A DNA stretch of 14,276 bases, from the NCBI GenBank assembly GCA_029259835.1, contig JAJDEL010000900.1:1-14276 (forward strand), written 5' to 3'. The notes beneath the pieces were generated by a model. It ran no database searches. It was not told the DNA's origin and was given only the letters and a program-made list of their open reading frames with translations. Numbering within the stretch: the stretch's first letter is position 1; each line of letters begins with the position of its first letter. Source of the stretch: Planctomicrobium sp. GTDB lineage: Bacteria > Planctomycetota > Planctomycetia > Planctomycetales > Planctomycetaceae. Positions 1,241-14,138 of this stretch are shown in pieces. Made by a program: the position numbers and the translations under genes.

Positions 1241-2143
1241 ATGCAATCCACACTTTACGATGCCAATCTTGGTTCTTCACTGAAGCTCCGTCAAATCTTC
1301 GACGGAGGCTGGAGAACGCAAGGGAATCCTGTGATCGCACGGTCGACTGCCGGGCTTGATCCTGCTGAAATTTATGGAGGTCGCGCCGATCCTGTTGCCG
1401 ATTTTCAATCATCAGACTTAGTGACAATCCTCACGAATATCGACCCTGCTGCGGGGTTGATCGTCTCTGATACGTTGACGCTGCCGTTTCAAAAGCGGGC
1501 GTCTGCGGCTACCTATGCGGCTGGCGCCAATCACTTCGCGTCGTCTGCGACCAAGGCATTGGTTGTCGTGACAAACATCTCGACCGCTCGCGACCAGGAG
1601 GGCGACGATTCCCCTGGAGCGATGGCGACGCTGGAGGCACACGTTGAAAGTTCAGACGGTGCCGATCCCCTGACAGGAAGTTCCGGGAATTCTCTTGCCG
1701 CCACGGCCTTCGTCGATCAATTTGCGATGGGGCCGGTGCAAGTCAATGGAACAACTGTCACTGATGCCGTTGGATTCCGTGTGAATCCCGGCATTGAAGT
1801 TTACAAGCAGTACACCGAGAGTTTGACCTACCCGACTCTCGTCGCGATCAGAATGCGAACACCAACGATTGAGATCGATGTTGAAGACCTGGACAGTTTC
1901 GCGAATTCTGGCGGATTTGGTTTGGGTTTCTCAGGATTGACGAGTACTGGATGCTTCTTGCGTCGACGGCTTGACGGGGCGCAATTCGAGCCTGATATCT
2001 CGGCGGTACACGCAAAAATGAGTTTCGCGACCGGGATTGCAAGCGTACAAACGATTCGGGGATCAGGTCACGACGACGCCTCCGGAACAATCATTTTGCA
2101 CGGCAAAGCACTTTCATGGTCTGCAACGAACGCACTTCCGTAA
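1241..2143 (+). CDS. Probable major tail tube protein
   Basis: A 300-aa protein with a good ribosome binding site. It is acidic, rich in Ala/Gly/Thr/Ser, lacks signal peptides or membrane segments, and has alternating predicted beta strands (for example DTLTLPFQKRA, ATKALVVVTNIS, PTIEIDVEDLD, GTIILHGKALSW). The N-terminus, LGSSLKLRQIFDGGW, and the central strand pairs resemble tail tube proteins I associate with planctomycete prophages. Its position after the neck genes and two genes before the tape measure is the standard place for the tube protein, which polymerises into the hollow tail shaft. No Ig-like C-terminal decoration is obvious. The call rests on order, length and composition. It has no sheath gene as neighbour, so the tail is probably non-contractile. 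Confidence 0.6.
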   Translation: MQSTLYDANLGSSLKLRQIFDGGWRTQGNPVIARSTAGLDPAEIYGGRADPVADFQSSDLVTILTNIDPAAGLIVSDTLTLPFQKRASAATYAAGANHFASSATKALVVVTNISTARDQEGDDSPGAMATLEAHVESSDGADPLTGSSGNSLAATAFVDQFAMGPVQVNGTTVTDAVGFRVNPGIEVYKQYTESLTYPTLVAIRMRTPTIEIDVEDLDSFANSGGFGLGFSGLTSTGCFLRRRLDGAQFEPDISAVHAKMSFATGIASVQTIRGSGHDDASGTIILHGKALSWSATNALP

Positions 2144-4932: not shown

Positions 4933-5154
4933 ATGACAAAGAAAGCCACCGCAAAGAAAGCCACCACGACCGAAGAGCGCATTGCCGCTGCTCTTGAAGG
5001 TGTCGACACCAAGCAGTCCGACTGTGATGCGGCTTACCACCAACACTTCCCGAATGAGGTCTCTCTGCACCAATTCCGCAACGAATGGTCGAAGAAAGTC
5101 GCCGCAAATTCTTCACCACCCACAGAACCACCAGCAGAGACTATTACCGAATAA
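4933..5154 (+). CDS. Small Lys-rich protein, 73 aa, function unknown
   Basis: A 73-aa protein starting at ATG 4933; upstream in-frame ATGs would overlap the preceding gene by over 100 bases and give no sensible extension. The start MTKKATAKKATTTEE is a basic low-complexity leader built on a 15-bp tandem repeat. A helical core follows (EERIAAALEGVDTKQSDCDAA and VSLHQFRNEWSKKVAAN, residues about 14-58), then a disordered Pro/Glu end (PPTEPPAETITE). The stop overlaps the next start as TAATG, so translation is probably coupled. No known function; its conserved place after the 127-aa tail protein suggests a minor tail or assembly role. Confidence 0.5.
   Translation: MTKKATAKKATTTEERIAAALEGVDTKQSDCDAAYHQHFPNEVSLHQFRNEWSKKVAANSSPPTEPPAETITE
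4937..4965 (+). repeat. 15-bp tandem repeat encoding KKAT
   Basis: CAAAGAAAGCCACC occurs at 4937-4950 and again at 4952-4965, one base apart (15-bp period). It encodes two KKA(T/T) units at the start of the small Lys-rich protein. Such a repeat can expand or contract in frame. Confidence 0.8.
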
Positions 5155-5774
5155 TGTCCGTTCACCTTGGCGCTCTTCAGATTCTCAGTTTTCGCTGGCA
5201 AACCGCCACCGCGATTGCTGTGGAATTTGAGAGCGGGCACACGGACTCTCATTATCAACTCTATGCCGGTCGCAGATTACTCGCAGAGACCGTTCACCCA
5301 GAACAACGAGAACTCATTGCTCAATATCCCTTTGAGCGATGGCAGGAGTATTGGAGAGTCGTCGCTGTCGATGGTCTTGATGTCGGCGTGGATCATGGCA
5401 GCAAATTCCCACCCAGACCCGAGAGCGTTGCCAGGATCCAATTCTCAACTGTGGGGTGGGCTGCTGATGCCGACTTGATCGACATTCACGCATCAACAGC
5501 ACCTGGCGGAGCGGTCGATCCCAACAACCGAATCGGCAGGATCCTTTACGAAGGTGAGAAGAGCTATGTCTTCGACGCGCCTCCGCGCGGACCGTCCGGA
5601 GTATGGAGTTTCGATGTGCAAGGACGGGATGACAAACCAAAGGGTGGAAACGCAGGGACCGCTGATTCTGGATCGGTCACCCTGCTGAGTATTCCTCCTG
5701 ATTTTGACGATGGGTTTGGTGTCTCCTTCACTGGTGGCATCGCGACGATCACAGCAACCGTACCAGTGGATTGA
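5154..5774 (+). CDS. Fibronectin-like tail protein (QLYAGR type)
   Basis: A 206-aa protein; ATG 5154 shares its A with the previous TAA stop, which is better than a start at 5085 that would overlap by 70 bases. Residues 9-88 form a beta-sandwich: LSFRWQTATAIAVEF, then HYQLYAGRRLLAET (33-46), a tryptophan-containing strand (YWRVVAVDG) and KFPPRPES. Residues 93-165 form a second unit with IQFSTVGW, LIDIHAS and a GVWSFDVQGRDDKPKGGNAG stretch reminiscent of fibronectin type III strands. This two-part layout is like tail-tip proteins I recall from planctomycete prophages. Its probable site is the distal tail, where such domains contact host surface glycans or other tip proteins. That role is inferred. 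Confidence 0.6.
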   Translation: MSVHLGALQILSFRWQTATAIAVEFESGHTDSHYQLYAGRRLLAETVHPEQRELIAQYPFERWQEYWRVVAVDGLDVGVDHGSKFPPRPESVARIQFSTVGWAADADLIDIHASTAPGGAVDPNNRIGRILYEGEKSYVFDAPPRGPSGVWSFDVQGRDDKPKGGNAGTADSGSVTLLSIPPDFDDGFGVSFTGGIATITATVPVD

Positions 5775-5781
5775 TAAGAGA

Positions 5782-6666
5782 ATGGCGACCGCAACCTGGA
5801 CAAAACCGAAACCAGACTCACCACCTGTCGTGAAATCTCGCGAGAAGTGGGAGGGCGGATCTGCGCGGTTGCCTTGGGAGTATCAGGTCACTGCGGTCAT
5901 CCCACACATCGACACGCCGGAAGAACTCGCACTGGTTGTGGAGCTGCTCAGGCTTCAAACAGTGCAGCCGTTTATCATTGTTGTTGACACGGGGTCAACT
6001 CCCGCAAACCTTGATCGCGTTTTGGAAATGCGAGCGAGCGACCTGGAAGTTCACACGCTTCAGCTCAATGGCGTGCGACATCCTTCTGACCCTGTCGCAA
6101 TGGCGATGGACCTCGCGACGATGGTCTGCCGGACGCGCTTCATGTTCTGCACTCATGCCGATTGCTTCCTGCGGCATCGTAATGTGCTCGATGAAATGGC
6201 GACACTTTGTGAAGACGATCCTGTGGTTGGATATCAGCTCTCTCCGCGTCCTCACGACGATTGGAAGTGGATGGTTGGGCACACTTGCACAATGCTCGAT
6301 ATCGATTGGATGGACCGACACAACATTACCTGGAGCCAACGCCGCCTGGCTCGCAACTTCGGTGCGATTGCTGGAATTGATTCGGAGGACTACGCGCCTT
6401 GTCCTACACGACCAAACTGGCCTGACACCGAACTCAATCTCAATTACATGGTCAAGGCAACCGGGATTGATCCGCTCATCATCGGGAGCGAGGAGAACCG
6501 TCAGAGAAACATCACCACAGACTTTGATCATCCTCGCAGTTACGTCTCCGCAAAAATGTATTCACCGAAATACTTCCAACAGGTGAAACGCTGGATGAAG
6601 CTTGCGAAGCAGGAAGCTCGCGTGAGAATTGATCAATGGCGACTTGCAGACTGTGAGGTGTTTTGA
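5782..6666 (+). CDS. Family-2-like glycosyltransferase (GT-A fold)
   Basis: A 294-aa protein. ATG 5782 lies seven bases after the previous stop; in-frame TTG 5704 or ATG 5710 would overlap that gene by about 65-70 bases. Residues 34-75 show the GT-A nucleotide-binding start: strand YQVTAVIPHI, a helix (PEELALVVELLRLQ), strand FIIVVDTGS (D69, S72). Residues 118-131, TRFMFCTHADCFLR, form the strand and acidic motif (H125-A-D127) that replaces DxD and would bind the metal and sugar nucleotide. Later conserved-looking elements are WPDTELNLNYMVKATG (213-228; D215/E217 candidate catalytic acids) and FDHPRSY (248-254). No membrane segment is visible, so it is probably cytosolic. Lying inside the tail operon with overlap to the next gene (TGATG), it may glycosylate a tail protein or alter a host glycan; donor and acceptor are unknown. 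Confidence 0.7.
   Translation: MATATWTKPKPDSPPVVKSREKWEGGSARLPWEYQVTAVIPHIDTPEELALVVELLRLQTVQPFIIVVDTGSTPANLDRVLEMRASDLEVHTLQLNGVRHPSDPVAMAMDLATMVCRTRFMFCTHADCFLRHRNVLDEMATLCEDDPVVGYQLSPRPHDDWKWMVGHTCTMLDIDWMDRHNITWSQRRLARNFGAIAGIDSEDYAPCPTRPNWPDTELNLNYMVKATGIDPLIIGSEENRQRNITTDFDHPRSYVSAKMYSPKYFQQVKRWMKLAKQEARVRIDQWRLADCEVF
6655..6660 (+). promoter_or_regulatory. Ribosome binding site for the tail fibre-like gene
   Basis: GAGGTG lies inside the end of the glycosyltransferase gene; its GAGG core ends seven bases before ATG 6666. It supports ATG 6666 over the TTG at 6663 and shows that the two genes are translationally linked. Confidence 0.6.
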
Positions 6667-7394
6667 TGGCGATTGCACTCAGGGGATCGACAGGAAAACT
6701 CACAGATTCGTCTGCAAATTCGATCACAACGGCAAGCTCACCAGCGGGGCTGGCCGTCGGTGACATCATGGTCGCTTTCGTCGCGAATTACGCGGCGGGC
6801 GCAGGAGACATGATTGCAGTCCCTTCCGGTTGGACCCTGATCGGAAGAGAAGCTGGCCCAATCAACACCAATGGAAGTTGGTTTTGGAAAGAAGCCGACG
6901 CAGCCGATGTCGCTGCTTCAAACTTCACATTTACAACGATCTCTGCGGGTAACAACGACAACACCTCAGTGACTCTTGTCGCGTATTCAGGTGTTGATAC
7001 AACGACGCCGATTCACAAATCGGCATTGAATTCAGGGACCGAGACGACAGTATCGACTGTGGATATTCCAGGTGTTACACCGACAGTCGATGGTTGCCAG
7101 ATCGTTGCGATGGGTGCCATTAACAATCCAACGAACACCTGGTCGCAGACGCAGCCTTCTGGCTACACCGAGGTTGGTCACCTCTTTGGGTCGGCAGTGA
7201 AAGTTGATCAGATCACGCATCACAAGAATCAAGCGACAGCAGCAGCAACTGGAAACATTACGTTCACTGTTAGTGCGTTGTCCTCTCCGAGATGGGTGGG
7301 AGGTGTCTTGGCTTTGCTCCCTTCTACAGGGGGCAGCGGAATCAAACGAAAGCTCATTAACGGCGGCCTCATCAATAACGGATTGATCTTATGA
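6666..7394 (+). CDS. Tail fibre-like beta-sandwich protein with GGLINNGL terminus
   Basis: A 242-aa protein starting at ATG 6666, overlapping the glycosyltransferase stop by one base. Residues 20-220 are one beta-sandwich domain rich in Thr, Ser, Asn and Gly, with landmarks GDIMVAFVAN (32-41), PSGWTLIGRE (53-62), SWFWKEADAAD (71-81) and VTLVAYSGVDTTTPIH (102-117). This layout is common in phage fibre and secreted adhesive proteins, in which the domain contacts other proteins or glycans. A flexible STGGSG linker precedes a short C-terminal tag, residues 228-242 (RKLINGGLINNGLIL), whose coding bases run into the next start. The tag looks like an interaction or anchoring peptide. The exact tail component is unknown. 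Confidence 0.55.
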   Translation: MAIALRGSTGKLTDSSANSITTASSPAGLAVGDIMVAFVANYAAGAGDMIAVPSGWTLIGREAGPINTNGSWFWKEADAADVAASNFTFTTISAGNNDNTSVTLVAYSGVDTTTPIHKSALNSGTETTVSTVDIPGVTPTVDGCQIVAMGAINNPTNTWSQTQPSGYTEVGHLFGSAVKVDQITHHKNQATAAATGNITFTVSALSSPRWVGGVLALLPSTGGSGIKRKLINGGLINNGLIL

Positions 7395-8884
7395 CAATTG
7401 CACTCGGAAACTTCACGCTCGATTCCACGATTCCGATCCCGTTCACCACGAACGACGGAAACGGGGGAGCAATTGGTCCTGCGAACGATTTCGAAGTTGC
7501 GGACTTCGTGATCTACAAAGAGTCCCTCGCAGACAAGAAGGCGAGCACGAATGGTCTGACGATCACGACGAACGGCGACACAGTGACTGGCCTACACTGC
7601 CTGACCATCGACACCTCAATTGACACCGGCGATGCTGGTTTCTGGGAGGCAGGAGCGAACTACTTCGTGGTCGCCACTCCTGACGAGACAGTTGATTCAC
7701 AGACCGTTGTCGGCCTCATCGCCACATTCACACTCGACCCTGATCCGTTCGACGAGGGTGAAGGAAACGAGATCATCGTCTGGAAAGACTACGGGTTCGT
7801 AGATGAAGACGGAATCGTTCGCATCCCCATTGCGACCAGTAATAGTAATGGGTTGGCGACTCCAGACGCGATTTCTGTTTCAATCTACAAAGAAGACGAC
7901 GCTGCAGAGAAGACTACGGCGAATGGTGTGACGGTCACAACCGATTTCGATTCAGAAACCGGTCATCATCTCATCAAAATCGACACCAACAACGATACTG
8001 GCGACGCCGGTTTCTGGATCACTGACAAAACGTACCATGTCAAAATCAAAACAACCGTCGCCAGCGCTGTTTCAGGCAGTGATAAGGTCAACCTGGCGGG
8101 TGTTGTGTTTCGTATCGGTTGCCAGAAGTCAGATGTTCAAAGACTGATCGGCTCTATGATCACAGAGACCACTGCCGGTCGCCTCGCTGGCAACTTTTCA
8201 ACGTTCGTCGATAATGGCGATGCTGACACAACGAATGTTCTTGATGATGTTGGTGGTGATAATGGTCCGACGGTCCTGCAATCGACGACAATTGCCACTC
8301 TCGCGAGTCAGTTGAGCTTCACGCTGACCGCAGGCTCCGCGGACGATGATGCCTACAACGGCTGCATGATGATCATCGAAGATCAGACAACAGCCGTTCA
8401 GAAAGCTCGCGTGCAGATCAGTGACTATGTCGGATCAACGAAGACGATCACTCTACAGACCGCTCCGGAATTCACCATCGCAACCGGAGACACCGTGAAG
8501 ATTATCGCGACTCCGAAACAGATCGACGGACTCGTTGACCCTTCAATCCAGTACGTTCCTTTGGTGACTCTCAGCTATACCGGAACGGCGGGAACGACGT
8601 TGCACATGCGAATCGACGTTGTCGATGGCTACGGACGTATTGTTGATGTGAACGCACTGGACGCCGCTGCAACCGCCTCAATGACAGTCTCAGAACACTC
8701 TCAAGATGGTGGGTCGGACATGTTCACAAAAGCGTTTTCCGCAGGCGATCAGGCTCGCAAAGGCTTCGAACAAACACAAAGCAATCCCGGATTTACAGAT
8801 GATAGGCAATACATCGCACAAACGACTGTGACGATCAACGGAACCCCTTACGTGAACACTGAGACCGTCGTCAACTTTGGATAA
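7391..8884 (+). CDS. Tail/baseplate protein with duplicated Ig-like domain
   Basis: A 497-aa protein; ATG 7391 overlaps the previous stop (ATGA). Two homologous domains occupy residues about 12-115 and 136-243: VIYKE at 40-44 and SIYKE at 164-168, TNGLT at 53-57 and ANGVT at 177-181, and GDAGFW at 80-85 and 204-209, all offset by 124 residues. They resemble BppU-like or Ig-like baseplate modules. Residues 245-375 form a further beta domain (TTIATLASQLSFTLTAGSADDD and KTITLQTAPEFTIATGDTVKIIA) of a kind frequent in phage tip proteins. The C-terminal part, residues about 380-497, is predicted beta (SIQYVPLVTLSYTGTAGTTL). Position in the adsorption region supports a baseplate or side-fibre component. 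Exact partner is unknown. Confidence 0.55.
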   Translation: MTIALGNFTLDSTIPIPFTTNDGNGGAIGPANDFEVADFVIYKESLADKKASTNGLTITTNGDTVTGLHCLTIDTSIDTGDAGFWEAGANYFVVATPDETVDSQTVVGLIATFTLDPDPFDEGEGNEIIVWKDYGFVDEDGIVRIPIATSNSNGLATPDAISVSIYKEDDAAEKTTANGVTVTTDFDSETGHHLIKIDTNNDTGDAGFWITDKTYHVKIKTTVASAVSGSDKVNLAGVVFRIGCQKSDVQRLIGSMITETTAGRLAGNFSTFVDNGDADTTNVLDDVGGDNGPTVLQSTTIATLASQLSFTLTAGSADDDAYNGCMMIIEDQTTAVQKARVQISDYVGSTKTITLQTAPEFTIATGDTVKIIATPKQIDGLVDPSIQYVPLVTLSYTGTAGTTLHMRIDVVDGYGRIVDVNALDAAATASMTVSEHSQDGGSDMFTKAFSAGDQARKGFEQTQSNPGFTDDRQYIAQTTVTINGTPYVNTETVVNFG

Positions 8885-8889
8885 TTCGC

Positions 8890-9612
8890 ATGGCTCGAAT
8901 CTGGCAGAGAAATCGGAACTACATTTTCCCGCATCGCCCGTTCAGCGGTCGCGGAGTCTCGATCTATGCTGGCGTTCCCCCTCTGAACTATCGCAACATG
9001 CGAATCATTCAGAGGAAGATCTTTCTGCGCGGTGGCGACACATTCCCAGTTGGTGAAACCAATATCACAAAAACCAGTCGCATTGGTTTCGCTACTGGAG
9101 TCGCTGGCGAAGCGATCACACCAGCAGTTGATCTTTCTCAGTTCAATGGACAGACCATCGCCGTCGATATCCGACACTTTGCTGATGATGTCGAAAATGA
9201 ATCAGTTCATCCGCAAATCGTCACTCTCGATGTCTCCGGAGAGAGCGTCACTGAAATCCTGGGAACAGCGATCGAGCTGGTTCACGAAGTCCGCGCGGCT
9301 GGTGTCGTGAAAATCCGCTTTCGTTGGGTTCCTTCTGACGACGGAATTCAACCTGACCTGTTTCGGATTCAACGGACTGCCGGACCGAGTAGCCCTGCCG
9401 ATGTAACGAAAGCAATTCGCATCACTGATAGTGGTCGCGGCGTCTATGAAATTCTCACACCAACGTTGAGCGATTCCAGCGCGTACACCTACAAGATCAT
9501 CGCAGAAAACACCGCCGGAACAGTCACGAAGGATTTGCTGACGGGCATTATCATCACCGCAGATGCCACCGGACCGATTGCTCCAGTTTCTCTCACGATT
9601 GAGGCAACCTAA
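8890..9612 (+). CDS. Tail protein with C-terminal fibronectin-like domain
   Basis: A 240-aa protein starting at ATG 8890, five bases after the previous stop, with no strong ribosome binding site. Residues 1-30 are basic and aromatic (RIWQRNRNYIFPHRPFSG). Residues about 60-165 form a beta domain (ITPAVDLSQFNGQTIAVDIRHFAD; VKIRFRWVPSDDG). Residues 168-240 look like a fibronectin type III or Ig-like fold: DVTKAIRITDSGRGVYEILTP, then YTYKIIAENTAG and a terminal strand PVSLTIEAT. Such domains are common tip decorations. It lies between the duplicated-domain protein and the large hub candidate, so it is likely a tail-tip component. No catalytic motif is present. Confidence 0.5.
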   Translation: MARIWQRNRNYIFPHRPFSGRGVSIYAGVPPLNYRNMRIIQRKIFLRGGDTFPVGETNITKTSRIGFATGVAGEAITPAVDLSQFNGQTIAVDIRHFADDVENESVHPQIVTLDVSGESVTEILGTAIELVHEVRAAGVVKIRFRWVPSDDGIQPDLFRIQRTAGPSSPADVTKAIRITDSGRGVYEILTPTLSDSSAYTYKIIAENTAGTVTKDLLTGIIITADATGPIAPVSLTIEAT

Positions 9613-9615
9613 ATT

Positions 9616-11484
9616 ATGCCAAATCCAAATCGAAATCAGCGTACGCCGGTCGGAATTTCAAAAACGAAATTTGTAGTGTATATCCGTGAAGACTTTATGT
9701 CTGAAGTCAGGGAGGAAGATGAACGGTCTGACGTCTATGTTGAAACGATACAGCATCGCGCGGGATCTGGTCTTATTGAAGCGGTCTTGATTTCAGATAT
9801 TGCGAAACAAAATCGCCGACTGGAAAACCTGTCACTATCAGAAAACGCTTCACGTAAGGTCGAAGTCTGGACGTTGCACGCGGATAACGGAGAGCGTGAA
9901 AATTGTCTTTTCTGGGGTGAAATTGTTGCCCAACAAATCGCGATTCGTAACGGGTCGGAAGCTCAATTGCTGATCGCGAGAGTCCTGCCATATCACTTCG
10001 GTGAACCGCTGAAAGGAATTCCAACATGGGGCTCATTCAGCACAGAGCCGGAAGTAGTTGACCACGACCTGGAATTCAATCCTGTTATCAATCAAAAATT
10101 GCTCTTCAATAAACTGGAAGTCGATCCGGAAGGATTTCAAACGCCAGGTCAATACGCAGATATCTCACTTCCAATGGACCCGGAAGTCTTCAATGACGCC
10201 GATGCCAATCTCGTGAAAGATGCTCTAGGCGGCACTCTCGAAGAGTGGAGCCTTGTCGATATCGTTGAAACTCTCATTTGGTGGAACAACGAAAACGAAA
10301 CGAACATTAAGAATCTTCCGAGAGACGGACTCGAATCACGTATTTCAGATCCGCCACGTGTAACAGATCTCATATTGCCTCGCGAGAATTATCTGCCATC
10401 AACCCTCGATCTCGTTTTGCAACCGTATGGATTTAACTGGTACGTCGAAATTTTCGTTGACGAGGCAGGTAATAACTCCCAGCGGACAATTGAAATCTAC
10501 AAACGTGGTGACGGGACAAAAAAAACGATTGATCTTCAAAACGTCGGGGAAGATTACAATCGAATCCTCTCAAACCTAGAAGAGACCATTCTCGATATCG
10601 ATATCAGTACGCTCGCGAATCGCGTTACCGGGCAATCTGCATTGATTCAAAATGAAGTCACCGCCGAACTCTGGCGGGCGTGGGATCAAAACGACGACGG
10701 GAACCAAGATCATAACGACGCGAACAATCCTATCGGTCGCAAGCTCGCCGCAAGTGAAGGCGCAGATTATTTTAGATTGAGAGACGAAATTGTCACAGCG
10801 GAATTAGGAAGTAATTATTTACTCAAGCGGAGACCAATGGAGGATTGTCTCACTCTGCGCGATGGAGAAAGAATCCCGCCACTTCTCCAGTACAGTGATG
10901 ACGATGGCGGCACATGGAATGACGCACCACAAAATTGGGCTTTTCGGCCTCTGAAGAATGAAATCGGTGTTTATTTCACAGACTTCAATGAGGACGGCAA
11001 CGCGATCCCTGATGAAGTGCTTGATGCCGATATTCGCTTCCGGATTACCTGCACAATCACATCCGACAAAAGGCACACATACACCAAACAAGCCGACGAC
11101 AGCCCAAACTCGAATGATCTTGAGCTAGTGATGGATCTTTCCAACCGGTTTCAAATTCGCAAGCGGATGGATTCGGGCGAATTCGCGAGCGTTCTGACAG
11201 GCGATGTTGACGAGCAAGATGACGAGGCGGCTCTAGAAGAATTCGTAGATTCAGTTGGATTGAATGAGCAGTCAGCACAGGTCACGGCGGAACTTCCGTT
11301 GCATGGAATTTTGACCGATTACAGAATCGGAGATCTCATCACCGAGATCAGAGGCCGGAACATTTCCTTGAATCGAAATTCTCGATCATCTTCACAAAAA
11401 CGATACCTGCAAATTGTGGGAATCAAATACGCAAACTTGCAGAAACAAAACACAATCCTCACTGTTGCACCGTACGATATGTAG
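9616..11484 (+). CDS. Large tail-tip / baseplate hub-like protein
   Basis: A 622-aa acidic protein, the longest in the window, starting at ATG 9616. Residues 20-170 and 305-345 hold paired strands (TKFVVYIRED; GLIEAVLISDI; KVEVWTLHADNG; LFWGEIVAQQ), and residues 255-300 contain YLPSTLDLVLQPYGFNWYVEIF, a layout seen in tail hub proteins of the gp27/Tal type, where a 'long-range' strand pair surrounds a central pore. The C-terminal third ends in strands (LQIVGIKYANLQKQNTILTVAP). Two Asp/Asn loops, residues 357-368 and 456-467, fit EF-hand or dockerin consensus spacing. Length, position after the tip genes and fold suggest the central hub that opens on adsorption. I see no lytic domain. The name is inference from pattern and place. 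Confidence 0.5.
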   Translation: MPNPNRNQRTPVGISKTKFVVYIREDFMSEVREEDERSDVYVETIQHRAGSGLIEAVLISDIAKQNRRLENLSLSENASRKVEVWTLHADNGERENCLFWGEIVAQQIAIRNGSEAQLLIARVLPYHFGEPLKGIPTWGSFSTEPEVVDHDLEFNPVINQKLLFNKLEVDPEGFQTPGQYADISLPMDPEVFNDADANLVKDALGGTLEEWSLVDIVETLIWWNNENETNIKNLPRDGLESRISDPPRVTDLILPRENYLPSTLDLVLQPYGFNWYVEIFVDEAGNNSQRTIEIYKRGDGTKKTIDLQNVGEDYNRILSNLEETILDIDISTLANRVTGQSALIQNEVTAELWRAWDQNDDGNQDHNDANNPIGRKLAASEGADYFRLRDEIVTAELGSNYLLKRRPMEDCLTLRDGERIPPLLQYSDDDGGTWNDAPQNWAFRPLKNEIGVYFTDFNEDGNAIPDEVLDADIRFRITCTITSDKRHTYTKQADDSPNSNDLELVMDLSNRFQIRKRMDSGEFASVLTGDVDEQDDEAALEEFVDSVGLNEQSAQVTAELPLHGILTDYRIGDLITEIRGRNISLNRNSRSSSQKRYLQIVGIKYANLQKQNTILTVAPYDM

Positions 11485-11495
11485 GCGCCGAGAAA

Positions 11496-11939
11496 ATGCC
11501 ACGAACAACCAGAAGAACAGACAACCCAAGACCCGCCAACCCTCAAGATCGCGCCGGAGGTGGTTGCCAACCTCAGTTTGCTCTCTGGCTGCATGGCAAT
11601 CCTGATGGCGGCTCAATCACATATTCCGTGACCGTCGAGACCGATGGAGGCGATGTGACCGAGGACGTGACTTTCAGCTTCACTGCAAGCGCGGAAGCTC
11701 CTGAAGGTTACTCCGGGGATGCTGATAGGTACATCGACACGGCACTCGCTGAACATAGTGAAATCGAACTCATTAATGTCGTCGCCAAGAGTCCCGGAGG
11801 GTCGCTGCCACATCAGGTGATGAGGTTTCACACGAAGGGATCAGTGAAAATGTCAGAAATTACATTCGGTGATTACGTCAACGACCTCACTGGTGGTTGG
11901 AGACCCTACGCACTTTTAGATCGCTGCTGTGGAGAATAA
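11496..11939 (+). CDS. Small distal tail protein, function unknown
   Basis: A 147-aa protein, ATG 11496, eleven bases after the hub-candidate stop. The N-terminus is basic and Pro/Asn-rich, with no membrane segment. Residues 38-65 are a beta hairpin (SITYSVTVETDGGDVTEDVTFSF) and residues 70-95 a helix-like stretch (DADRYIDTALAEHSEIELINVV). It ends in a cysteine pair (DRCCGE), and Cys24 is near a Gly-rich segment. The pattern resembles a small protein I associate with the ends of planctomycete tail clusters. It lies directly before the propeller gene and may be an adaptor for it. No function can be assigned from sequence. Confidence 0.45.
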   Translation: MPRTTRRTDNPRPANPQDRAGGGCQPQFALWLHGNPDGGSITYSVTVETDGGDVTEDVTFSFTASAEAPEGYSGDADRYIDTALAEHSEIELINVVAKSPGGSLPHQVMRFHTKGSVKMSEITFGDYVNDLTGGWRPYALLDRCCGE

Positions 11940-11941
11940 CG

Positions 11942-13162
11942 ATGGGATGTTGCTGTCTTGAACATGAATTCATTGGCACGCAGGCGACAATGTATGCCGT
12001 CCGCCTGAGCGATGGTGTGATCCTTTACGCCTTCGATTGTCTCTCCAGAATGGGGGGCGAAGGAAGCGGGGGCAGTTGCGACACGAATTCCAGCAAAGTC
12101 TTCAACGTGGCGAGCAGAAGCGGATTCGGGTTTAGCATCGCAGCCTATGACAAGACAACTTACGAGAACCTCTGGATCAATGACATCGTTGACGATTCTT
12201 CCAGTTACGTCTCTGAAAGCATTTCGCTTTATGCCGATGACAGCTATGTCTGGATCGCTGAACCAAACGGGCGTGCATGGTGCTACGATCAATCTGACGG
12301 TACGGAAGTCGGGACTCTGGAAAGTGACGATATTCCAGACTACTTGAATATCATGGCGGGTACGGAGGAAGGGAAAGTCTGTTTCGGTGCTCGCGTTGAA
12401 TACGATCACGAATTCACGGTCGTGCAATCATCCACAATCATAGAGGGTGCGAGTCCCATACTCACACCAGCCAACACAACAATCGGAACTGCAATCGATA
12501 TCGGCGTTGAAATTGTCGCGGCATACAAACAGGCGTCGAGAAACGAACTTCACATCTTCACAGTGGAGAAAGGCGATCTTGCAAATCCGTTTCACACGTT
12601 TCGATCAACAATTCAGACAGACAACTCTGACTTAATGATCGCTGACAGCTCACAATACGTCATTACCGGATGGGGAGACGATGTTGATCCAGTTGAAATT
12701 CCAGTGGGGACCGCTCCAGGAATCCAACTTCGAAACAATCGTGAAGCGTACTCTGTGAATGGTCCGTCCGTCTGGCAGCACTCTTTAGTTGGTGCTGATC
12801 CTACCAGCCCAATCCCAGTCCCGGTGATGTCGTCAGATTCGGTCTTTGGAATCGCTCAGTTCGACAACATTGCAAAATACGCAAGAGTGACGACCGAGAC
12901 GTACGGGACAGACACCGCTTGGTCTAAAACGCCCGGTGTGGGTTCAAGTCACCTGACAGCACTCTTTGATAATCCAAACTCGCAAGCCATTGGCATCGGC
13001 TCCCCTGGTGAAATTCTACGCGCCCTCGCTGACGATGACGGCGAAACGAATTGGGAAGCTGATCTCGTTGGCGACGGACTCAGGCTCATTGACGAGGGTG
13101 AAATCGTCTTCGCAGCCGTCCAAAGACACCAACTCGAAGATTCACTTCCGGATTCAGAGTGA
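11942..13162 (+). CDS. PQQ-like beta-propeller tail protein (candidate receptor-binding)
   Basis: A 406-aa protein starting at ATG 11942, two bases after the previous stop; the in-frame TTG at 11897 would overlap that gene by over 40 bases. It begins with a cysteine cluster (MGCCC), then repeated strands of four-stranded-blade type: MYAVRLSDGVILYAFDC (17-33), VWIAEPNGRAWCYDQSDGTEVGTL (103-126) and ILRALADDDGETNWEADL (358-375). The 'A-x-D-x-x-x-G-x-x-x-W' spacing matches PQQ-like and WD40-like blades, though blades in the middle are poorly conserved. No signal peptide is present, so it is not an exported enzyme. At the very end of the tail module, a propeller could form the receptor-binding tip. 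This role is inferred; a host-derived cargo gene is less likely because it is flush with the operon. Confidence 0.5.
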   Translation: MGCCCLEHEFIGTQATMYAVRLSDGVILYAFDCLSRMGGEGSGGSCDTNSSKVFNVASRSGFGFSIAAYDKTTYENLWINDIVDDSSSYVSESISLYADDSYVWIAEPNGRAWCYDQSDGTEVGTLESDDIPDYLNIMAGTEEGKVCFGARVEYDHEFTVVQSSTIIEGASPILTPANTTIGTAIDIGVEIVAAYKQASRNELHIFTVEKGDLANPFHTFRSTIQTDNSDLMIADSSQYVITGWGDDVDPVEIPVGTAPGIQLRNNREAYSVNGPSVWQHSLVGADPTSPIPVPVMSSDSVFGIAQFDNIAKYARVTTETYGTDTAWSKTPGVGSSHLTALFDNPNSQAIGIGSPGEILRALADDDGETNWEADLVGDGLRLIDEGEIVFAAVQRHQLEDSLPDSE

Positions 13163-13205: not shown

Positions 13206-14138
13206 ATGACACTCGAAACGCTCATCAACAAGTTCCTGAAGAGCTGTCGGCGCAAGGATGCGTCTGCAAACACGCTCCGTAGTTACCGCAGCCGGCTCAA
13301 TCAGTTGCTCGAACACTTTGGCACCGATCACGAGTACTCCTCAATCGACCGCGAAGAATTCCTCGATTATCTCCACACCGTCAATCACTGGCCGGCTGAT
13401 CACAAAACTAAGCCTGGTGAAGAGAAATCAGGTTCGACGCAGCGACTGAACATCATCGTCCTGCAACTGCTTCAGGACTACGCCGAAGACTTTCACCAAC
13501 TTCCGCAAGTCCTCAAAAAGCAAGATCTCGAGAAGCCGGCCGTCGGCCAGCGTGAACGCATCGCCACTGATGCCGAAGTCGCGGAGATCCTCAATCTCGC
13601 GAATCCTGGTTGGATCCGTCTCTACCAGGCGTTGCGGTTCACCGGCGCCCGACCTGGTGAGCTGATCTCAGCACTCATCGAGAAGATCGATCCTGCCGGC
13701 CCTCCGTTCACGAATGCGGTGATCGTTGTTGAGAAACACAAAACCGCTCGCAAGACCGGCAAGCCGAGAAAGATCCCCATCGGCAGCCACGTCGCCGGGA
13801 TCATCGCCGAGTCCGTCGGCGATCGCCAAAGGGGCCCCATCTTCCTGGACGACAAGGGGAATCCGTGGAATGTTCCCAGGGCCTCGCGAATCTTCCGCAA
13901 GATTCGCCAGCAGCTGCAGCTGCCAACGGAGATTGTGTTTTATTGCACCAGGCACGAATTCGGCAGCAAGGTCGCCGCCACCGGCGGCATCAACACCGCC
14001 AAAGAACTTCTCGGCCACACCGATATCAAAACAACGCAAAGATACATCCACCTCAGCCAGCAGCAGCTGCGGCAAGGCCAGGAAGCAGCGTTTTTGAAAC
14101 AGCATAGCGATGTTAGCAATCCGACGAATCCAGGCTGA
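13206..14138 (+). CDS. int: Tyrosine recombinase (phage integrase)
   Basis: A 310-aa integrase starting at ATG 13206, 43 bases after the propeller stop. Residues 1-105 are the SAM-like core-binding domain (SANTLRSYRSRLNQLLEHFG). Residues 118-300 form the catalytic domain: Arg149 in RFTGARPGEL, a beta-hairpin lysine around 177-179 (VEKHKTARKTGKPRKIPI), Arg249 in FYCTRHEFGS, His271 in LLGHTDIKTT and nucleophile Tyr280 in QRYIHLS. The usual HxxR histidine is Tyr246 here, giving YxxR, a replacement I recall from planctomycete integrases. The length is typical. The gene has visibly higher GC than the tail genes, so it may be of separate origin. It should catalyse integration and excision at an attachment site, likely close downstream. 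Confidence 0.9.
   Translation: MTLETLINKFLKSCRRKDASANTLRSYRSRLNQLLEHFGTDHEYSSIDREEFLDYLHTVNHWPADHKTKPGEEKSGSTQRLNIIVLQLLQDYAEDFHQLPQVLKKQDLEKPAVGQRERIATDAEVAEILNLANPGWIRLYQALRFTGARPGELISALIEKIDPAGPPFTNAVIVVEKHKTARKTGKPRKIPIGSHVAGIIAESVGDRQRGPIFLDDKGNPWNVPRASRIFRKIRQQLQLPTEIVFYCTRHEFGSKVAATGGINTAKELLGHTDIKTTQRYIHLSQQQLRQGQEAAFLKQHSDVSNPTNPG

Follow-up and report, generated by a model that had tools for sequence, protein, structure and literature searches.

A glycosyltransferase (GT) gene was found among the tail genes of a planctomycete prophage, and we favour, on balance, the reading that its product is made together with the tail and glycosylates a tail fibre or adhesin, with activity, donor and acceptor all being predicted. 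In a wider and distinctly more tentative proposal, planctomycete siphovirus-type prophages might possess a tail-fibre slot with an exchangeable GT, in which a constant fibre with a swapped sugar diversifies the receptor-binding part, the version of the prophage studied here being a GT family common to large T4-like phages.

The glycosyltransferase gene resides in a prophage tail module

The analysed stretch of DNA, referred to as the window, is the entire 14,276-base contig G000:C888 from a planctomycete genome of 954 contigs. The genes along its plus strand look like a siphovirus-type tail module, with a tyrosine recombinase at the end. The following features are relevant here.

1241..2143, plus strand: probable major tail protein, named from its position; 40% and 47% identity in the related loci L103 and L104
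2898..4517, plus strand: probable tape measure protein, named from its conserved position and a weak PHROG virion-structural match (E 0.003)
5154..5774, plus strand: tail-module gene preceding the GT and bordering the slot on the left; seven syntenic prophages have a match to it, and neither Pfam nor PHROG gives it a name
5782..6666, plus strand: GT-A glycosyltransferase, 294 aa, of a family seen mostly in phages (fold, alignment and distribution)
6154..6162, plus strand: HAD motif (H125-A-D127) replacing DxD, with a putative role; H and D are conserved without exception in the 30 aligned rows
6418..6432, plus strand: WPDTE motif (W213-E217), likely to be the catalytic-base region; unchanged in all 30 aligned rows
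6664..6668, plus strand: TGATG stop/start overlap between the GT gene and the next gene with the single common base 6666, read from the sequence
6666..7394, plus strand: beta-sandwich (almost all-beta) protein, 242 aa, putatively of fibre type
7391..8884, plus strand: 497-aa protein, the C-terminal part of which delimits the slot on the right in most related prophages (L107 is unmatched at the cut-off used)
8890..9612, plus strand: conserved tail-module protein; 38-48% identity in four aligned relatives
9616..11484, plus strand: conserved tail-module protein, 622 aa, which served as query for related prophages
13206..14138, plus strand: tyrosine recombinase (XerC/D-like), likely the prophage integrase; E 9e-21, below the curated cut-off

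The GT gene was confirmed as real and starts seven bases after the stop codon of the upstream gene; the one-base overlap with the downstream gene had already been noted in the first-pass annotation and is correct. Matches to the recombinase occur at the same end in L103, L104, L107 and L122. Between the tail genes and the recombinase, positions 11897-13162 encode a protein with weak similarity to PQQ/BamB-like repeats (E 8e-4, under the cut-off).

The protein has a GT-A fold and two invariant motifs

Structure comparison established a GT-A Rossmann-like fold for the window GT, and the best solved folds include WrtF, TarP, SpsA and RmlT, several of which we take to be wall or surface glycan enzymes. 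With GT2 enzymes (PF00535) the protein shares the GT-A fold, an N-terminal nucleotide-sugar half and acidic motifs, but it carries HAD instead of DxD and WPDTE, presumably the equivalent, instead of the usual ED motif, and it stays below the curated Pfam cut-off for PF00535 (15.4 versus 23.3 bits). That label is borne by 13 of the 29 relatives with which it was aligned. In all 30 rows of this alignment, consisting of the window GT and these relatives, H-x-D is found where, by reading, the acidic motif for metal and sugar-nucleotide would be expected, and the alanine of HAD is replaced by serine in a single row. As judged from the aligned proteins, sequence constraint among the relatives is strong. 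The initial assignment to the GT-A type had been made from sequence motifs, all of which are indeed present in 5782-6666, and it is borne out by the fold and the invariant residues.

Over its GT-A half the protein also matches the profile of the mycofactocin glycosyltransferase MftF (TIGR03965) weakly (E 7e-4); this identity was rejected at 18.6 bits versus an NCBIfam equivalog cut-off of 280. Several relatives (P0004, P0006, P0007, P0010, P0013, P0034 and P0040) have a Cys/His-rich N-terminal stretch, and a separate 226-aa open reading frame beside the GT gene in a Maioricimonas prophage (L085:9155-9835) contains a similar one by reading.

Four of seven related prophages carry other glycosyltransferases in the same tail-fibre slot

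Relatives of the 622-aa protein were detected in eight other genomes of the 99 relatives searched and in 12 of 170 genomes of the family, the window's included, while neither viral contigs nor phage records yielded any. A wider search (11 of 392 genomes) added six distant loci (L132-L137), which match none of the slot-border genes and were left out of the slot count and the GT scan, as were L106, L109, L124 and L125 with an incomplete slot. Both borders are present in eight loci, the window and seven others (L103, L104, L105, L107, L108, L122, L123): on the left the 5154 gene, on the right the C-terminal part of the 7391 gene (unmatched in L107), followed by the 8890 and 9616 genes. None of the seven syntenic loci contains a match to the window GT family, and for five of these prophages the search covered the whole genome. 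The window GT is thus not obligatory, since seven related prophages keep the bordering tail genes without it. The first-pass annotation had regarded exactly such prophages as speaking against its proposal.

In the window, the slot is occupied by the GT and the beta-sandwich protein. In L107 (Gimesia aquarii) this place is taken by a tail-fibre-type protein of 633 aa and a 548-aa protein containing two GT2 regions; L122 has a 696-aa fibre together with a GT2 protein, L123 a 634-aa fibre together with a protein that contains two GT4 domains, and L108 a GT2 protein in addition to a tail-fibre protein and one of LamG type. Named GTs of another kind are therefore present in four of the seven slots (the window excluded), each adjoining fibre-type genes. 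Large structural proteins including a fibre protein (PF23140), and no GT, fill the slot of L104, and among the slot proteins scanned in L103, L104 and L105 (3/7) no GT was named. L105 has a 416-aa protein with a Methyltransf_24 domain (L105:8649-9896, minus strand), which was not counted as a GT because only its methyltransferase half is named; its N-terminal half looks GT-A-like by reading alone and is named by none of the libraries searched. The GT2 enzyme of L108 (L108:2702-4459) also resembles sulfotransferases weakly (PF13469, E 0.034, below cut-off), a hint that sulfated glycans might be involved.

Given a background of 12-29 PF00535 matches per genome in these eight genomes, 0.083 matches would be expected over the 28.6 kb of slot sequence at genome density, as opposed to at least one GT2 match in each of three of the seven slots (P ~9e-5, or 0.003 if only two are independent, as two of the three share one genus). 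The enzyme of the fourth slot, that of L123, belongs to GT4.

In the three prophages of genus g38, the fibres are 59-67% identical over their length, whereas the enzymes share only 80-100 N-terminal residues (34-38% identity in the matched pairs L107-L122 and L122-L123; the copies in L122 and L123 are known from BLAST only).

L107:9516-11162: GT2+GT2
L122:11206-12342: GT2
L123:5272-7746 (minus strand): GT4+GT4

Because the fibres are this similar while the catalytic parts differ, it appears from the sequences that the enzyme, and not the fibre, has been replaced. A joint exchange of fibre and enzyme is contradicted in these three prophages by the same fibre identities. The shared N-terminal module could possibly be a docking domain for the g38 fibre; a protein search with it returned the query's own record and one further protein only.

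The family member in Maioricimonas follows a glycosyltransferase cassette

Among 392 planctomycete genomes, the window GT family was found at E<=1e-20 in two, the window genome and Maioricimonas rarisocia (G044), a member of the same taxonomic family with a GT 59% identical to that of the window. Among the 99 relatives, G048 adds a weak match (28% identity, residues 35-151). The Maioricimonas prophage carries portal, capsid, major tail protein and tape measure genes, after which come an 855-aa protein with partial tail-type matches, an unnamed 360-aa protein and a cassette composed of a GT2 protein, an unnamed 317-aa protein, a GT4 protein, a 1425-aa GT/methyltransferase/GT2/TPR protein and finally the window GT family member. 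When the window genes were compared with the fetched Maioricimonas stretches, the GT alone gave a match at E<0.1; the tails of the two prophages therefore appear unrelated, and both place the GT behind tail genes. Beyond the Maioricimonas GT, L085:4371-9155 and L090:10014-14762 (minus strand) contain two genes (1594 and 1582 aa) with similar starts. By reading only, they encode YD-repeat (Rhs-like) proteins, and transposase-like open reading frames lie between or near them.

A tight coupling of the GT with the downstream beta-sandwich gene, as originally suggested, is not supported. A search with the 242-aa protein retrieved 26 proteins including itself, only two of them near 50% identity, both on metagenome contigs. 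Its sole other match among the 99 relatives is weak and lies in G073, a distant relative without a GT match, and the fetched Maioricimonas stretches contain no match although the GT is present. A strict pair was rejected on these two cases, and the seven syntenic prophages without the window GT likewise speak against it.

Most viral members of the family lie in stretches with T4-type tail genes

Viral contigs provided 115 confirmed matches to the window GT family, the best 80 of which were retained as 79 loci, on contigs of 4 to 533 kb. Grouping of all fetched loci at 90% GT identity resulted in 55 groups, or 51 viral groups after subtraction of four (window, Maioricimonas, metagenome-assembled genome (MAG)). 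On genome contigs of about 85,000 species, only two family loci, L083 and L084, were encountered, both in a single Neisseriaceae MAG (AWTP1-37); L083 is probably misbinned phage DNA, as its gene order is that of the viral loci. The family has so far been seen mostly in phages, a statement that is not exhaustive, since the genome-contig scan had limited sensitivity and missed both Maioricimonas and a planctomycete MAG under P0040. A single one of 50,697 phage records matched, an unannotated 595-kb phage, in two places. At the one place read (L138; LR756511.1, 347346-366125) the GT copy adjoins a run of genes named GT-like by reading, and no tail gene of the tested clusters is nearby.

Open reading frames were called with a simple script and clustered by single linkage, each cluster being named from one representative. 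At least one T4-type tail gene (tube, sheath, gp15 or baseplate) is present in the fetched stretch of 38 of the 51 non-redundant viral groups, some stretches being short since contigs end. The location inside a tail module claimed for the window GT is supported and is common in the family, which does not agree with the accompanying premise that GTs of phages are usually encoded elsewhere than in this module. In 38 of 51 groups there is likewise a protein with a sigma-70 region 2, similar to a late sigma factor (directly after the GT in 34), and in 37 a TPR protein. In these contigs the tail genes are mostly on the strand opposite to the GT, which adjoins the TPR protein and the sigma-like factor. 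Loci such as L018, L035 and L079 display a conserved block of TPR (probably GT2-TPR), GT and late-sigma-like genes next to those for tube, sheath and gp15. Profile comparison of the TPR cluster with the GT2-TPR region of Maioricimonas gave 98% probability over the GT2 half, based on an alignment of 63 rows (two of 65 dropped, including Maioricimonas L002; the cellular GT2 row L003 kept), and the cluster is likely to represent GT2-TPR proteins. Cluster c19 is GT-like by reading, without a match in Pfam or PHROG.

A midpoint-rooted FastTree tree of the family, read without support values, comprises three clades. The first consists of tail-locus members, the second of members that, with exceptions such as L022, are mostly distant from tail genes, and the third contains the window, Maioricimonas and metagenome proteins. 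Two viral loci without T4-type tail genes, L069 and L071, are placed nearest to the window.

Proposed function and alternatives

In the function that we favour, a soluble GT-A (GT2-like) enzyme would be produced alongside the tail proteins of a siphovirus-like planctomycete prophage. Encoded behind the distal-tail genes, in a slot occupied in its relatives by a fibre or adhesin and often by another kind of GT, it would use a host nucleotide-sugar as donor and attach one or more sugars to Ser/Thr or other side chains in the adjacent fibre or adhesin. The transfer would occur before or during tail assembly and yield a glycosylated receptor-binding part. We infer the catalytic activity, the donor, the protein acceptor, the late timing and the role, be it masking, receptor binding or stability; the gene is presumed to be expressed late because of where it lies.

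This function is suggested by the GT-A fold with its invariant HAD and WPDTE motifs, by the tail context in two unrelated kinds of phages (T4-type viral contigs and siphovirus-type prophages), by the GT2/GT4/multi-domain GT cassette preceding the Maioricimonas member behind tail genes, by the different GTs adjoining fibre-type genes in four of seven syntenic slots, by the excess of GT2 matches in three of them and by the g38 enzymes that change while the fibre stays alike. Other observations argue against it. Three slots (L103, L104 and L105) are without a named GT, the immediate partner of the family varies, with TPR and sigma-like neighbours on the strand opposite to the tail genes in viral contigs, and the second clade of the family is mostly away from tail genes. 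The beta-sandwich protein has the highest Ser+Thr content (21.9%) of the 16 window proteins compared, but none of these contains a mucin-like Ser/Thr stretch. Tail-protein glycosylation as first put forward is supported in a broader form, by a fibre-type slot with other GTs in four of seven relatives, and not as a pairing with this one gene.

Ranked next, although unlikely, is modification of a host surface glycan (O-antigen, capsule or other), leading to a superinfection block or a receptor change. GT2-like enzymes are typical of surface glycan synthesis, several of the close solved folds (WrtF, TarP, RmlT and SpsA among them) are those of wall or surface glycan enzymes, and co-evolution of fibre and receptor would equally yield a linkage of fibre and GT genes. 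Gtr O-antigen conversion operons of temperate phages consist of a flippase, a bactoprenol glucosyltransferase and a membrane enzyme. The window resembles them in that its GT is prophage-borne; it differs in that Pfam named none of these three components in the ten window proteins scanned, which include both neighbours of the GT on a contig ending at 14276. Neither a GtrA-type flippase nor a GtrB beside the enzyme was seen there, and no flippase or membrane partner was named in the scanned slot proteins. Moreover, the window GT gene is situated among tail genes with a start/stop overlap and not beside the recombinase, and the change of the g38 enzymes with similar fibres fits an enzyme acting on the fibre somewhat better than a concerted change of fibre and receptor. 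Tail location and the lack of a named flippase partner in the scanned proteins together make lysogenic surface conversion less plausible and favour a product that is made along with the virion.

It is quite improbable that the GT is mere cargo in an insertion-permissive site between tail genes, functionally unlinked to the fibre. Its accessory distribution (two of 392 planctomycete genomes), the absence of the family from the seven syntenic loci and the variable slot contents would agree with cargo, but GTs recur in the slot (GT2 in three of seven as opposed to 0.083 expected matches, GT4 in a fourth), the sequences appear strongly constrained and tail locations are seen in unrelated phages.

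Base glucosylation needs a partner enzyme making the hydroxylated base, and DNA hypermodification by viral GTs was reportedly described by Pyle and colleagues in 2024. Glucosylation or other hypermodification of phage DNA by the window GT would be in keeping with a known role of phage GTs (PMC12619734) and is nevertheless very unlikely. Within the 14 kb available, none of the scanned window proteins was named as such a base-hydroxylating partner, and GT2 and GT4 enzymes that occur in a tail slot in several architectures suit protein or glycan acceptors better.

Relation to known systems and implications

Glycosylation of virion proteins as such has a precedent. The first-pass annotation had called such virion modification poorly described, which needs qualification: virion glycosylation is reported for the mycobacteriophages Che8 (gp110), Corndog (gp38) and Myrna (Freeman et al., 2023, as cited in passages of PMC12363180 and PMC12619734), where, according to these passages, phage-encoded GTs act on virion structural proteins, namely capsid and tail tube. 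The hosts are different, and the window GT, with its predicted activity, lies in a fibre slot. The parts of PMC12619734 considered also describe moraphages, large aquatic phages with T4-like tail genes, a sigma factor and four core orthogroups named putative GTs, a combination similar to that of our viral contigs, some of which possibly belong to the moraphage lineage. These orthogroups are, in those parts, named only as putative GTs and without placement in a tail locus. Virion glycosylation as such is thus already known from mycobacteriophages, and the fibre slot with changing GTs is the new part; no report of fibre-GT slots in planctomycete prophages was found in the open-licence papers searched.

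Sugar modification of virions by phage enzymes has been shown in few systems. If the slot pairs a fibre with a GT that can be replaced without loss of that fibre, the acceptor becomes predictable, namely the neighbouring fibre. From the slot reading, a role can further be proposed for an unnamed GT family found in phages with T4-like tails. If true, glycans would constitute a second layer of variation in phage host recognition.
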